From Phenylobacterium sp. (lineage in GTDB: Bacteria; Pseudomonadota; Alphaproteobacteria; Caulobacterales; Caulobacteraceae), in NCBI RefSeq assembly GCF_030679875.1, contig NZ_JAUXSP010000011.1, positions 1 to 64,000 of the forward strand: 64,000 nucleotides of DNA, in the 5' to 3' direction. The notes under the pieces are model-generated. The model saw only the letters and a program-made list of their open reading frames with translations. It made no database searches and was not told the origin of the DNA. This document shows, piece by piece, positions 3,189-59,917 of the stretch; position 1 is the stretch's first letter, and each line of letters opens with the position of its first letter. The translations under genes were made by a program, and so were the position numbers.

Positions 3189-4220
3189 CTAGGTCCCCGT
3201 CACGCGGCGAACGGCGCGCTCGATATGTTCCACCGGGGTGTCTGGCAAAACCCCATGGCCGAGGTTGAAGATATAGGGACCCTTGCCCCACTGTTCGATC
3301 AGCGCGTCGATGCGGGCGTCCATGGCCGGGCCGCCGGCCCGCAGCAGAAGATTGTCCAAGGCCCCCTGGATCGCCTTGCCGCCGGCCTGGATCTTCTGGC
3401 CCTGGGCGGCGCTGGCCTGGGTGTCCAACGCGACCGCCTGCACAGGGACCCGGGCGGCGTAGTTGTCCACCAGGGCCCCGGCCCCCCGGGGAAAGCCGAT
3501 GAAGGGGGTGTCAACGCCGGCGGCGCGGACCTTCTCGATAATCGCCACATGCGGACGGATGACGATCCGCTCGAAGACGTCCTCGGCCAGGCCCTCGGCC
3601 CAGCTCTCGAACAGCTTCAGGGCCTGGGCGCCGGCCTTGGCCTGCATGACCAGGTAGCGGGCGGTGGACTCCACCAGGATGTCCAGCAGGCGGTCCAGAG
3701 CCTCAGGGTTCTGATAGGCGTAGGTCCGGGCCCCAGACCGGTCAGAGCCCCGGCCCTCGATCATATAGGTGGCCACCGTCCAGGGCGCGCCGGCGAACCC
3801 GATCAGGGCGCGCTCCGGCTCCAGTTCAGCCCGCACCCGGGTCAGGGTTTCGCCAATCTCGGAAAGCCTGCCGGTCGAGGCTTCAATCTGGGCCTCCATG
3901 GCCGAAAGCTCAGGCAGCTCGCCCAGCCTCGGGCCTTCCCCCGTCTCGAACCAGACCTTTTGGCCGAGCGCCTTGGGCAAGAGCAGGATGTCGGCGAAGA
4001 CGATGGCCGCATCAAAGGGAAAGCGCCGCATGGGCTGCAGGGTCGCCTCGGCGGCCATCTGCGGGTTGTGGCAGAAGGCGATGAAGTCCGGCGCCCGGGT
4101 GCGGAGCTCACGATACTCGGGCAGAGACCGTCCAGCCTGGCGCATGAACCAGACGGGGGGACGATCGAGGGTTTCGCCGGCCAGGGCGCGCAGGAGGCGG
4201 GGCTTTGCGGTGTCGCTCAT
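3189..4220 (-). CDS. hemE: Uroporphyrinogen decarboxylase
   Basis: Converts uroporphyrinogen III to coproporphyrinogen III. With the ATG at 4218-4220 (MSDTAKPRLLRALAGE) the protein has 343 residues, the usual family length; the frame stays open upstream but that part is not HemE-like. Signatures: PPVWFMRQAGRSLPEYR (about 20-37), with the Arg/Gln/Arg that bind the tetrapyrrole carboxylates, and GFAGAPWTVATYMIEG. It borders the origin, as hemE does in Caulobacter crescentus, and its promoter must lie inside the origin region. First gene of hemE-hemH-hemJ. Confidence 0.97.
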   Translation of the reverse strand: MSDTAKPRLLRALAGETLDRPPVWFMRQAGRSLPEYRELRTRAPDFIAFCHNPQMAAEATLQPMRRFPFDAAIVFADILLLPKALGQKVWFETGEGPRLGELPELSAMEAQIEASTGRLSEIGETLTRVRAELEPERALIGFAGAPWTVATYMIEGRGSDRSGARTYAYQNPEALDRLLDILVESTARYLVMQAKAGAQALKLFESWAEGLAEDVFERIVIRPHVAIIEKVRAAGVDTPFIGFPRGAGALVDNYAARVPVQAVALDTQASAAQGQKIQAGGKAIQGALDNLLLRAGGPAMDARIDALIEQWGKGPYIFNLGHGVLPDTPVEHIERAVRRVTGT

Positions 4221-16201: not shown

Positions 16202-16735
16202 ATGCAGCTCTACCACTTCAGCGACGATCCGGGCATCGCGGTTTTCGAGCCCCGCCCTGTCCGCGCGCCCTCAGAGCGGGGCCCGGGACGTGAATGGCTG
16301 AACGGTCCCCTGGTCTGGGCCATCGAAGCGGCCCGCCAGGCCATGTACCTGTTTCCCCGGGACTGCCCACGCATCCTGCTGTGGCCGACAGAGACGACGA
16401 GCGCCGCCGATCATGCGGCCTGGTTCGGGGCCAGCCCGGCGGCCGCCATCGCCTATGTCGAATGGGCCTGGCTGGAGCGGCTGCGCGCCGCCACCCTCTA
16501 TCGCTACGCCTTGCCGGCCGAGGCCTTCAAGAGCCTGGACGACGCGGGCATGTGGGTGGCGCGCGAAACGGTGACGCCCACCGGCTGCGAGGCGCTGAGC
16601 GACCTGCCCGCGGCCCTGCGCGAAGCCGGCGTCGAGCTTCGGCTCACCGAGACCCTGACCCATCTGCGGCCGGTCTGGGACACCACCCTGCACGCCAGCG
16701 GCATCCGCCTGCGCCACGCCAAGGACTGGACATGA
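16202..16735 (+). CDS. DUF6886 family protein
   Basis: Protein of unknown function, 177 residues, no signal peptide or membrane helix. Recognised by the N-terminal LYHFSDDPGIAVFEPRP and the PLVWAIEAARQAMYLFPRDCPRI segment. The family is widespread and uncharacterised; the compact domain with conserved His/Arg looks enzymatic, but no activity is known. It overlaps the following cyclophilin gene by 4 bp. Confidence 0.75.
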   Translation: MQLYHFSDDPGIAVFEPRPVRAPSERGPGREWLNGPLVWAIEAARQAMYLFPRDCPRILLWPTETTSAADHAAWFGASPAAAIAYVEWAWLERLRAATLYRYALPAEAFKSLDDAGMWVARETVTPTGCEALSDLPAALREAGVELRLTETLTHLRPVWDTTLHASGIRLRHAKDWT

Positions 16736-17541
16736 AGACAATCCTGCTCGCCGGCCTTGCGGCCGCGCTCCTGCCCTTCGCCGCCAGCGCCGCGGACTGG
16801 CGCACGCCCGACCCCGCCGAGACCCTGGTGATCGACACCACCAAGGGCCGCATCGTCGTGGAGCTGGCGCCCCTGGTCGCGCCGGCGGCCGTCGCCCGGG
16901 TCAAGCTGTTGGCCAAGGAAGGCGTCTATGACGGCCTCCAGTTCCACCGGGTGATTGCGGGCTTCGTCGCCCAGACCGGCAATCCGGGCGATCGCGACGG
17001 GGGGACCTCCGACCATCCTGATCTCGCCCCGGAATTCACCTTTCGCCTGACCCCGACGGTGTCAGCCGAAGTCGCCTTGGTCACCCAGGCCAGCGACGGG
17101 CGGACGGGCTTTCTGGGCGCCATGCCGATCGCGGCGGTCTCGGCTGGCGAACAGGCCCGGGCCCGCAACGGCCGGGTCCTGGCCTGGGGCGCCTATTGCC
17201 CGGGGGTGTTCGGCATGGGCCGCCAGGCTGATCCCGGCACCGCCAACAGCGAGATCTTCGTCATGCTCGACGCCGCCCGGCGCCTGGACCGGGACTACAC
17301 CCCGTTCGGCCGGGTGATCGCCGGGATGGACGTGGCCCAGGCCCTGGCGGTGGGCGAGCCGCCGGAGAGCCCCGACCGCATGGTCCGCGTGGCGCTCGCC
17401 GCCGACCTGCCGCAGGCCGAACGCCCGAGGCTTGAGGTGGCTGATCCTGCGGGCGGTCTCCTCCAGGCCCGCATCGCCGCCCTGCGCGCACAGAAGGGCG
17501 CCGACTTCACCGTCTGCGACGTGGAGATCCCGGTGCGCTGA
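16732..17541 (+). CDS. Periplasmic cyclophilin-type peptidyl-prolyl cis-trans isomerase
   Basis: The ATG at 16732 gives 269 residues with a Sec signal peptide (MKTILLAGLAAALLPFAASA). The cyclophilin domain covers about 25-215: FHRVIAGFVAQTGNPGD contains the catalytic Arg and substrate-binding Phe, and FGRVIAGMDVAQAL closes the fold. A C-terminal extension of about 50 residues beyond the usual domain contains one Cys (DFTVCDVEI). The frame stays open upstream through the DUF6886 gene, but that part is a shadow. Confidence 0.9.
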   Translation: MKTILLAGLAAALLPFAASAADWRTPDPAETLVIDTTKGRIVVELAPLVAPAAVARVKLLAKEGVYDGLQFHRVIAGFVAQTGNPGDRDGGTSDHPDLAPEFTFRLTPTVSAEVALVTQASDGRTGFLGAMPIAAVSAGEQARARNGRVLAWGAYCPGVFGMGRQADPGTANSEIFVMLDAARRLDRDYTPFGRVIAGMDVAQALAVGEPPESPDRMVRVALAADLPQAERPRLEVADPAGGLLQARIAALRAQKGADFTVCDVEIPVR

Positions 17542-17554
17542 GCCACCTCTCATC

Positions 17555-17643
17555 CCGTCACCCTCGGGCTTGTCCCGAGGGTCCCTCGTCGGGGCAGGCG
17601 CAAGCGTCGAGAGGGACCCTGGGCACAAGGCCCAGGGTGACGG
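17555..17643. repeat. Nested palindromic repeat, copy A
   Basis: An 89-bp element bounded by the perfect inverted ends CCGTCACCCT and AGGGTGACGG. Inside are two hairpins, CCCTCGGG/CCCGAGGG (loop CTTGT) and CCCTGGGC/GCCCAGGG (loop ACAAG), around a centre containing GCGCAAGC. It lies 34 bp upstream of the GIY-YIG gene start. Confidence 0.9.
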
Positions 17644-17677
17644 TTAGTATGTGGCGGCTAACGGGAGGGCGAGACCC

Positions 17678-17977
17678 ATGGTTGGGCGCGACGCCTACAT
17701 CGCAGTCTACATGATGAGCGACCGGCCCCGCGGGACGATCTATATCGGGGTGACAAGCCAAATCGCCCGCCGGATCTGGGAGCATCGAGAGGGCGTCGAG
17801 CCCGGCTTCACCCGCCGATATGGGCTCAAACGCCTGGTCTGGTACGAGCCCCAAGACGACATGGGCGTGGCGATCCAGCGGGAAAAGTCCCTCAAGCACT
17901 GGCCGCGACAATGGAAAATCAACCTGATCGAGGCGACGAACCCACATTGGGACGATCTCTATCCGGGCCTAACCTGA
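17678..17977 (+). CDS. Single-domain GIY-YIG nuclease
   Basis: Small protein (99 residues) consisting of one GIY-YIG endonuclease domain. Motifs: VYMMSD...GTIYIGVTSQIARRIWEHR (the degenerate GIY/YIG pair with the catalytic Tyr and Arg) and AIQREKSLKHW with the metal-binding Glu. The ATG at 17678 is preceded by GGGAGGG, which decides it over a GTG 27 bp upstream. The gene is bracketed by two directly oriented copies of a nested palindromic repeat (17555-17643 and 18001-18087). The function of this subgroup is unknown; a link to repeat mobility is inferred from context only. Confidence 0.9.
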   Translation: MVGRDAYIAVYMMSDRPRGTIYIGVTSQIARRIWEHREGVEPGFTRRYGLKRLVWYEPQDDMGVAIQREKSLKHWPRQWKINLIEATNPHWDDLYPGLT

Positions 17978-18000
17978 CGACGCCTCGCCACCGCCCGGCT

Positions 18001-18087
18001 CGTCACCCTCGGGCTTGTCCCGAGGGTCCCTGTCGAGGGCGGGCGCAAGCGGCGCGAGGAACCCTGGGCGCAAGGCCCAGGGTGACG
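18001..18087. repeat. Nested palindromic repeat, copy B
   Basis: An 87-bp element with ends CGTCACCCT and AGGGTGACG and the same two hairpins and GCGCAAGC centre as copy A, in the same orientation. It lies 23 bp downstream of the GIY-YIG stop codon, between it and the convergent nth gene. Confidence 0.9.
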
Positions 18088-18104
18088 GGATGGAGCTGAG
18101 GCCC

Positions 18105-18821
18105 CTACCCCGCAAACAGTCCGCGCGAGGGGCAGAGGTCTGAGACCGGGCATTCATCGCACTTGGGCTTGCGGGCCACGCACACATAGCGGCCGTGCAG
18201 GATCAGCCAGTGGTGGGCGCGCACCAGATAGGGCTGTGGGATCACCCCCATCAGTTCGGCCTCCACCTGGTCCGGGGTCTTGCCGAAGGCGAGCTTCAGC
18301 CGGTGGGCGACGCGGAAGACATGGGTGTCCACGGCGATGGCCGGCTCGACCCGCAGTTCGTTCAGCACCACGCTGGCGGTCTTGCGCCCGACGCCGGGCA
18401 GGGCCTGCAGGGCCTCGCGCTCCAGGGGCACCTCGCCCCCGTGCTGCTCGATCAGGATGCGGGCCGCGGCGATGACGTTCCTGGCCTTGGTGCGGAACAG
18501 GCCGATGGAGGCGATGAAGCCGATCAGCCCCTCTTCCCCCAGCGCCAGCATCTTCTCCGGCGTGTCAGCCACCGCAAACAGGCGGGTGGTGGCCTTGTTG
18601 ACCGAGACATCGGTGGCCTGGGCCGACAGGGCCACGGCGGTCACCAGGGTATAGGGGCTGTCATAGTTGAGCTCGGTGCGGGGGTCGGACTCCGCGTCCT
18701 CGAACCGTTCGAACAGGGTGGCGATGCGCGCCTGCTCGGCCGGGGGCAGGCGCCGGCGGGCGGGCGCCTTGCCAGCGGTCTTGCGGGGTTTGGCGGCGGG
18801 GGAGCGGGGAGGCGGGGCCAT
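18105..18821 (-). CDS. nth: Endonuclease III (DNA glycosylase/AP lyase)
   Basis: Base excision repair enzyme that removes oxidised pyrimidines. With the ATG at 18821 it has 238 residues; a TTG at 18842 would add seven. A basic Ala/Pro/Lys-rich N-terminal extension (about 30 residues) precedes the fold. The helix-hairpin-helix LPGVGRKTASVVLNE includes the catalytic Lys, and the catalytic Asp is in VDTHVFRVAHRL. The Fe-S cluster Cys are in CVARKPKCDECPVSDLC (C-X6-C-X2-C-X5-C). Divergent from the DUF2244 gene. Confidence 0.96.
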   Translation of the reverse strand: MAPPPRSPAAKPRKTAGKAPARRRLPPAEQARIATLFERFEDAESDPRTELNYDSPYTLVTAVALSAQATDVSVNKATTRLFAVADTPEKMLALGEEGLIGFIASIGLFRTKARNVIAAARILIEQHGGEVPLEREALQALPGVGRKTASVVLNELRVEPAIAVDTHVFRVAHRLKLAFGKTPDQVEAELMGVIPQPYLVRAHHWLILHGRYVCVARKPKCDECPVSDLCPSRGLFAG

Positions 18822-18885
18822 GGGGCTTGATGCCCTGCGCAAAGCCCCTCGCCAAGTCCGCCGGTGACGCTAATATCCGGTCACG

Positions 18886-24017: not shown

Positions 24018-24049
24018 CCGTCACCCTGGGCGCAGGGCCTAGGGTGACG
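24018..24049. repeat. Half copy of the palindromic repeat (copy C)
   Basis: CCGTCACCCT and AGGGTGACG flank GGGCGCAGGGCCT, forming one hairpin of the same family as copies A and B. It lies between ccmC and the Spy-like gene. Confidence 0.75.
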
Positions 24050-37577: not shown

Positions 37578-37665
37578 CCGTCATCCTGGGCCTTGCGCCC
37601 AGGATCCCTCTCGAGGCTTGCGCCGGCCGCCGAGAGGGATGCTCGGCACACGGCCGAGCATGACG
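37578..37665. repeat. Nested palindromic repeat, copy D (inverted orientation)
   Basis: An 88-bp element with ends CCGTCATCCTGGG... and ...GAGCATGACG. Its centre matches the reverse complement of copy A (CCCTCTCGAGGCTTGCGCC). Hairpin 1 is ATCCTGGG/CCCAGGAT and hairpin 2 is ATGCTCGGC/GCCGAGCAT: the bases differ from A and B but both arms change together. Confidence 0.85.
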
Positions 37666-59884: not shown

Positions 59885-59917
59885 CCGTCACCCTCGGGGC
59901 AAGCCCGAGGGTGACGG
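59885..59917. repeat. Half copy of the palindromic repeat (copy F)
   Basis: CCGTCACCCTCGGG-GCAAG-CCCGAGGGTGACGG: a single perfect 14-bp-arm hairpin of the family, 17 bp after the oxidoreductase stop. Confidence 0.85.

Follow-up and report, generated by a model that had tools for sequence, protein, structure and literature searches.

A small GIY-YIG nuclease gene associated with CGTC REP hairpins as a probable mobile unit

Within a 64,000-nucleotide stretch of Phenylobacterium sp. contig NZ_JAUXSP010000011.1 (hereafter the window), a gene for a small GIY-YIG nuclease lies between hairpin dimers of the CGTC REP superfamily. The association of this gene with such repeats extends to many other genomes: the two ends of a locus match each other, repeat type follows the protein across unrelated genomic places, the gene is under purifying selection, and gene and repeats are present at some sites that hold neither of them in the examined relatives. 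Taken together, we consider it likely that the flanking hairpins and the gene between them constitute a single mobile unit, mostly 355–474 bp long, in which an Slx1-like nuclease acts on the hairpin ends, and that gene-less dimers are its offspring. That hairpins are cut, that such cutting causes movement, and that it produces the gene-less dimers are inferences drawn from how repeat type and protein vary together, from the empty sites and from the analogy to REP/RAYT systems.

The preliminary description of this locus had likened it to REP elements with their RAYT transposases, with a different nuclease, and had suggested a mobile or repeat-maintaining cassette, a suggestion that is supported by the flanking, the repeat abundance and the empty sites reported below. 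The identification of the repeats with a named superfamily, and the finding that repeat type tracks the protein, go beyond that description.

The locus in the window

Recomputed coordinates bear out the initial observation of a 99-residue GIY-YIG gene between two near-identical elements of the same orientation, separated from the gene by 34 bp on the upstream side and 23 bp on the downstream side. The related elements that had been noted elsewhere in the window are likewise present, namely one dispersed dimer and two "fused" palindromes, each consisting of the left half of one REP and the right half of an inverted REP. The features are as follows.

16735–17541, plus strand: cyclophilin-type peptidyl-prolyl isomerase gene (PF00160), a neighbour used in the empty-site comparison
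~17555–17643, no strand: upstream REP dimer, head-to-head, CGTC tags outward (repeat comparison, hairpin scan, folding)
17556–17582, plus strand: CGTC hairpin 1, stem 9 bp, loop 5 nt, 0 mismatches
17616–17642, minus strand: CGTC hairpin 2, stem 9 bp, loop 5 nt, 0 mismatches
17678–17977, plus strand: GIY-YIG nuclease gene, ATG at 17678 to TGA at 17977, 99 amino acids, lone catalytic domain (PF01541, 44 bits)
~18000–18088, no strand: downstream REP dimer, a direct repeat of the upstream dimer (repeat comparison, hairpin scan, folding)
18001–18027, plus strand: CGTC hairpin 3, stem 9 bp, loop 5 nt
18061–18087, minus strand: CGTC hairpin 4, stem 9 bp, loop 5 nt
18105–18842, minus strand: endonuclease III gene (nth), a neighbour convergent with the isomerase gene (TIGR01083, over cut-off)
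24019–24049, no strand: fused palindrome, CGTC-arm-loop-arm-GACG, one mismatch (hairpin scan of the window)
37579–37665, no strand: dispersed gene-less REP dimer (hairpin scan of the window)
59886–59916, no strand: fused palindrome, CGTC-arm-loop-arm-GACG (hairpin scan of the window)

In this dimer-gene-dimer layout both dimers, about 89 bp each, have the same orientation, and the direct repeat that they form around the gene extends over 102 nt with 85% identity and a start-to-start distance of 445. The outermost hairpins of the unit are inverted, and the innermost ones point in the opposite direction to those of the simple layout described below. When folded as single-stranded DNA, the two dimers reach −37.4 and −30.0 kcal/mol, values that were equalled or bettered by 0 of 200 and 2 of 200 shuffles, respectively. 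The source genome contains 13 matches to a degenerate REP pattern and none to the reversed pattern, and its two further PF01541 genes have no such hairpin within 1.5 kb. A search of Rfam over 17400–18300 gave four sub-threshold matches, none close to the gathering score, NCBIfam gave a single match far under its cut-off, and phage records yielded nothing by tblastn at 1e-5.

Identity of the repeats and relation to REP/RAYT

The window repeats agree with the CGTC REP superfamily in tag, 9-bp stem, 5-nt loop and the predominance of head-to-head dimers, as the superfamily is portrayed in the passages concerned of a survey which states that it "apparently lack[s] a dedicated transposase" and reports no association with transposase genes (Di Nocera et al., 2013, PMC3733652). 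All four hairpins of the window unit carry the CGTC/TGTC end tag, their stems and loops (9 and 5) fall within the 8–9 bp and 4–5 nt of the superfamily, and the repeat recurs in the genome mainly as head-to-head dimers (the 13 pattern matches; three dimers in the window). The same passages give complementary A-T at the first two stem positions and a CCA tail, whereas the window stems have A-T first and C-G second, with CCC or TCC tails (CCC(T) in the comparison); most other loci do show the AT stem start and the CCA tail.

Two of the carrier species named in the survey are represented here by strains in which repeats flank a GIY-YIG gene, namely Azospirillum lipoferum 4B (L151) and Novosphingobium aromaticivorans DSM 12444 (L152). 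Further, the gonococcal GIY-YIG homologue lies inside an array of hairpins of the dRS3/CGTC-1 type, the Neisseria repeat dRS3 being equated with CGTC-1 in the survey's passage on it (PMC3733652). GIY-YIG is not mentioned in the survey passages that we consulted (PMC3733652), nor in any retrieved passage of three other papers carrying the survey's title phrase (PMC12306157, PMC6006769, and PMC5896051). Within the open-licence part of PMC, we found no paper linking GIY-YIG to REPs.

In organization the system resembles REP/RAYT and its REPINs. REP/RAYT systems combine GTAG-tagged repeats with an HUH tyrosine transposase, and REPINs spread with the RAYTs. Both there and here, an enzyme gene is flanked by REPs, gene-less dimers are scattered, and the repeat type is lineage-specific. 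However, the tag here is CGTC rather than GTAG, and in place of the HUH tyrosine (IS200-like) transposase of a REPtron the product contains only PF01541, a GIY-YIG nuclease. If mobile as proposed, the system would act like REP/RAYT without being a member of it.

Association of the gene with the repeats

Homologues of the gene were found in 180 of 249 genomes of the window's order, and 227 of the 398 genomes in the phylum sample gave a match at E ≤ 1e-3, a count that includes the YhbQ type. Three sets of loci were compared: 110 loci from the order, among them the first 30 loci, which had been looked at earlier; 80 named loci; and 63 loci from the rest of the phylum, from which 7 loci of the window's order had been excluded before counting. 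These are the best-scoring matches of each search and not random draws, and five loci are shared by the order and named sets and one by the named and phylum sets. The hairpin detector was designed after the survey (PMC3733652) and the window had been inspected.

The test proposed in the preliminary description, whether genes of this subgroup are regularly flanked by the repeat, comes out positive in all three sets. Flanks matching each other up- and downstream of the gene were present at 81/110 order, 59/80 named and 53/63 phylum loci, compared with 1/187, 3/528, and 1/88 shifted windows, respectively. When either a flank match or any CGTC hairpin within 400 bp was accepted, the numbers rose to 97/110, 74/80, and 58/63, the corresponding shifted windows giving 22/187, 75/528, and 12/88; because of chance hairpins, this one-sided criterion is a loose one (12–14% of shifted windows). 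By the criteria used, 13/110 order, 6/80 named and 5/63 phylum loci have no repeat, and one-sided layouts are common. The strict hairpin test by itself is passed by 50 of the 110 order loci, and loci that fail it often carry other hairpins, including asymmetric CGTC types, CCTC-like tags and others. A gene in Sinorhizobium sp. C101 (L148) has a flanking palindrome whose tag is CCTC-like, and the detector does not count this palindrome.

In the named set, CGTC/TGTC hairpins lie within 400 bp of the gene at 62 of the 80 loci and on both sides at 44, and their density is 6.1 per kb at a distance of 1–100 bp vs. 0.15 per kb at 4–10 kb. Five other tags occur near the gene at 2–10 of these loci, two-sided at 0–1, and GTAG hairpins at 4. 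With crude ORF calling, intergenic DNA alone gives 5.10 vs. 0.43 hairpins per kb, and hairpins are borne by 42/65 gaps adjoining the gene vs. 42/455 elsewhere. At 30 loci of the YhbQ paralogue, located by querying the phylum sample with YhbQ of E. coli K-12, a hairpin is present in 2 cases, neither of them two-sided, and there are no flank matches.

The repeats are also not equally abundant in genomes lacking the gene. Among genomes of the order with at least three pattern matches, 38 of 40 have the gene; put differently, 38/180 genomes with the gene vs. 2/69 without it are repeat-rich (Fisher p = 1.8e-4, hand count from the listings). Two gene-free genomes are exceptions: G206, with 6 pattern matches, and G126, of the same genus as the window, with 40 pattern matches and no homologue at E ≤ 1e-3. 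The degenerate pattern is blind to the kinds of repeat found in families f2 and f3, and therefore its zeros do not prove absence; the tag-free flank comparison was added for this reason.

Anatomy of the unit and co-variation of repeat and protein

In 37 of 190 loci, the hairpins closest to the gene are inverted around it. Of these simple units, 31 span 355–474 bp and the others 541–707 bp, and the sequence just beyond both tags is G-poor. In Caulobacteraceae, a direct-orientation dimer on either side of the gene is frequent, as in the window. Like insertion sequences and MITEs, the system has inverted ends, a single gene (in the 37 simple loci the innermost hairpins serve as terminal inverted repeats around one enzyme gene), gene-less derivatives and insertion into an operon, but its ends are hairpins and no target-site duplication was seen. 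To our knowledge, units of 355–474 bp are shorter than the smallest insertion sequences.

Up- and downstream hairpins of the same locus have a mean similarity of 0.96 vs. 0.69 between loci (74 loci). Among the matches listed, related genes mostly occupy differing places in their genomes, and the repeat type nevertheless tracks the protein. Considering non-syntenic pairs among 111 loci, the repeat type is shared by 19 of 20 pairs at 80–98% protein identity, by 92% of 39 pairs at 75–80%, 66% of 38 at 70–75% and 46% of 145 at 65–70%, and by 4–7% below 55%. The rank correlation between protein and repeat over these loci is 0.29, equalled by 0 of 1000 label permutations; across different bacterial families it is weaker (0.154, 7 of 500 permutations). 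Thirteen pairs were available within the same genome: both pairs at ≥83% identity share a repeat type, while 9 of the 11 at ≤64% differ and 2 share, and a few hairpins in this pair list (L215 and part of L219) are probably due to chance. One genome (G164) has tandem GIY-YIG gene pairs at two places (L199, L229), with starts 637 and 556 bp apart.

The nuclease

The AlphaFold model of the 99-residue protein has a pLDDT of 93.4, and its nearest solved structures are the UPF0213 proteins 1zg2 and 1ywl, followed by Slx1 and UvrC domains, all with Foldseek E values above 0.001. It shares the lone fold of the Slx1-like prokaryotic GIY-YIG proteins and of UPF0213/YhbQ; YhbQ differs in not being flanked by repeats (2/30). 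Residues Y11, Y22, G24, R32, E69, and N88 are invariant among 30 proteins, and we take these conserved GIY-YIG residues to be the catalytic ones. No domain besides PF01541, and in particular no extra DNA-binding domain, was found in the product. The gene is under purifying selection, with pN/pS up to 0.40 in 20 pairs and dN/dS of 0.02–0.32 in the 18 of 20 with unsaturated dS.

A 2006 survey describes methyltransferase neighbours for Slx1-like prokaryotic GIY-YIG proteins, and its passages on these proteins do not mention repeats (PMC1564403). It also reports an HsdR protein that has recently acquired a GIY-YIG domain by insertion (PMC1564403), which would fit a mobile unit. Matches also occur in open frames of 447–1483 codons (G631:C133, G159:C18, G664:C108, G007:C6), which may be in-frame insertions or fusions, or mere long frames in GC-rich DNA.

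Occupied and empty sites

Empty sites in related strains, the comparison suggested at the outset, were found at several loci, and in three cases gene and repeats are both present where the examined relatives have neither. In Azospirillum lipoferum 4B, a dimer-gene-dimer unit lies inside the suf operon, between sufB and sufC, and gene and repeats are absent from the five other Azospirillum records examined, of 11 that are insert-free. G171 and G333 carry the unit at a site that is empty in 18 examined relatives (nearest 90%), and G121 at a site empty in 19 (nearest 94%); these two comparisons covered the best 20 loci of 75 and of 131 genomes, and 3/18 and 2/19 of the empty loci have a tagged hairpin of another type 210–840 bp past the compared flank. 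No target-site duplication was recognised in the DNA bordering the 37 simple units, and comparison with empty sites yielded no exact insertion boundaries.

In Sphingobium, three strains examined, of 7 records with the gene, have a hairpin-gene-hairpin arrangement. Among the four records without it, all examined, TomTYG64 and TomTYG74 have a single palindrome tagged at both ends, and TYG72 and TYG65 have none. Such a fused palindrome would be the expected leftover of a deletion between the two outer arms; six candidates were found among 595 hairpins from 190 loci. The window palindromes at 24019–24049 and 59886–59916 resemble the one at the empty Sphingobium site. Remnants of the gene were also seen (L150; L162): in Sinorhizobium medicae an intact hairpin is followed by the first 26–27 amino acids of the gene product, and the copy in Sphingobium TomTYG73 is frameshifted.

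At the window's own interval, G253 and G126 carry a single REP dimer but lack the gene, G249 has neither, and in G292 synteny is lost. The four genomes are nearly equidistant (86.8–90.6%), with G253 and G126 closest to each other. Since two relatives have a REP dimer without the gene there, the dimer may have preceded the gene at this place.

Proposed mechanism and alternatives

In its simplest layout, which is not that of the window, the unit would consist of an outward CGTC hairpin, about 30 nt, a gene of about 90–110 codons, about 20–40 nt, and an inverted hairpin ending in GACG. The Slx1-like nuclease might recognise the hairpin form of its own REP, whether extruded or single-stranded, and cut close to either the CGTC tag or the base of the hairpin, and the cut would initiate excision or copying of any DNA enclosed by two outward hairpins. 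A unit that encloses the gene would move itself, and head-to-head dimers lacking the gene would depend on it for their spread, in the way that REPINs depend on RAYTs. For the dimer-gene-dimer layout of the window, the direct repeats could also permit loss or gain of the gene through ordinary recombination. Against a mobile unit stand the repeat-free loci, the 50/110 yield of the strict hairpin test, the one-sided layouts, the failure to see a target duplication, the gene-free G126, the possibly older dimer at the window's own interval, and the two divergent paralogue pairs that share a repeat type.

Alternatively, though we regard this as unlikely, the protein could be a free-standing homing endonuclease targeting the REP. 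It would cut an empty REP, and repair of the break, guided by homology in the flanking REPs, would copy the gene in; on this view the REPs were present earlier and spread otherwise. GIY-YIG domains are known among homing endonucleases, the repeat type would track the protein as a target does, and the lone dimers of G253 and G126 opposite the dimer-gene-dimer of the window are what such a history would leave. However, the examined relatives are REP-free at the Azospirillum, G171/G333, and G121 sites, the simple layout puts the gene within an inverted pair instead of a split target, and a lone 99-residue domain has no extra part for binding DNA.

It is less probable still that the nuclease serves the host by trimming or resolving REP cruciforms, with nearby repeats as its substrate or regulators and the REPs moved otherwise. 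The Slx1-like fold, the purifying selection and the presence of the gene in 38 of 40 REP-rich genomes are compatible with such a role. A fixed housekeeping function is nonetheless disfavoured, because related genes with the same repeats are found at differing places, copy number ranges from 0 to 9 per genome, and broken copies exist in Sinorhizobium medicae and Sphingobium TomTYG73. Passive co-location, in which small dispensable genes and REPs both settle in permissive gaps or an unrelated transposase moves both, is the least credible explanation and already disfavoured, for although a passage of the survey places REPs in permissive intergenic gaps (PMC3733652) and the window unit does lie between convergent genes, the hairpin excess persists in the intergenic-only count, is specific to the CGTC/TGTC tag and absent at the YhbQ paralogue, and a co-variation of repeat and protein would not be expected.

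Implications

Returning to the mobile unit, the nuclease may be the partner enzyme that a widespread family of bacterial repeats has lacked, and it may perhaps move them. CGTC REPs are abundant in the intergenic DNA of many Alphaproteobacteria, and also occur in Neisseria and Rickettsia; with a specific partner enzyme, the question of how they spread, which dates from their naming, becomes testable at the bench. Should the nuclease be what moves the repeats, GIY-YIG chemistry, hitherto associated with homing, restriction and repair, would also serve DNA transposition, and hundreds of species would harbour a mobile element in the form of a short gene labelled "GIY-YIG nuclease family protein" or "excinuclease subunit C". 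We see roughly even chances for the wider proposition that this is a new class of autonomous transposable element, with a lone GIY-YIG nuclease of about 95 residues as a transposase acting on hairpin ends, and the source of the CGTC REPs across Proteobacteria and, to judge by single cases, beyond. Were this true, its length of about 360–470 bp would place it among the smallest self-moving elements known.

Additional loci

In Rhizobium sp. CIAT894 (L144), a stretch with REP hairpins (3308–3876) is repeated at 271-bp spacing downstream of the GIY-YIG gene, and an IS4-family transposase gene lies upstream of it. Single cases from Bacteroidota and Cyanobacteriota (L287, L288) have other TGTC-tagged repeats. 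On a Planktothrix agardhii plasmid (L287), the gene stands between a gene for an MmeI-like restriction enzyme and the DISARM gene drmA, and a repeated TGTCATTCTGAG-type sequence occurs near it.
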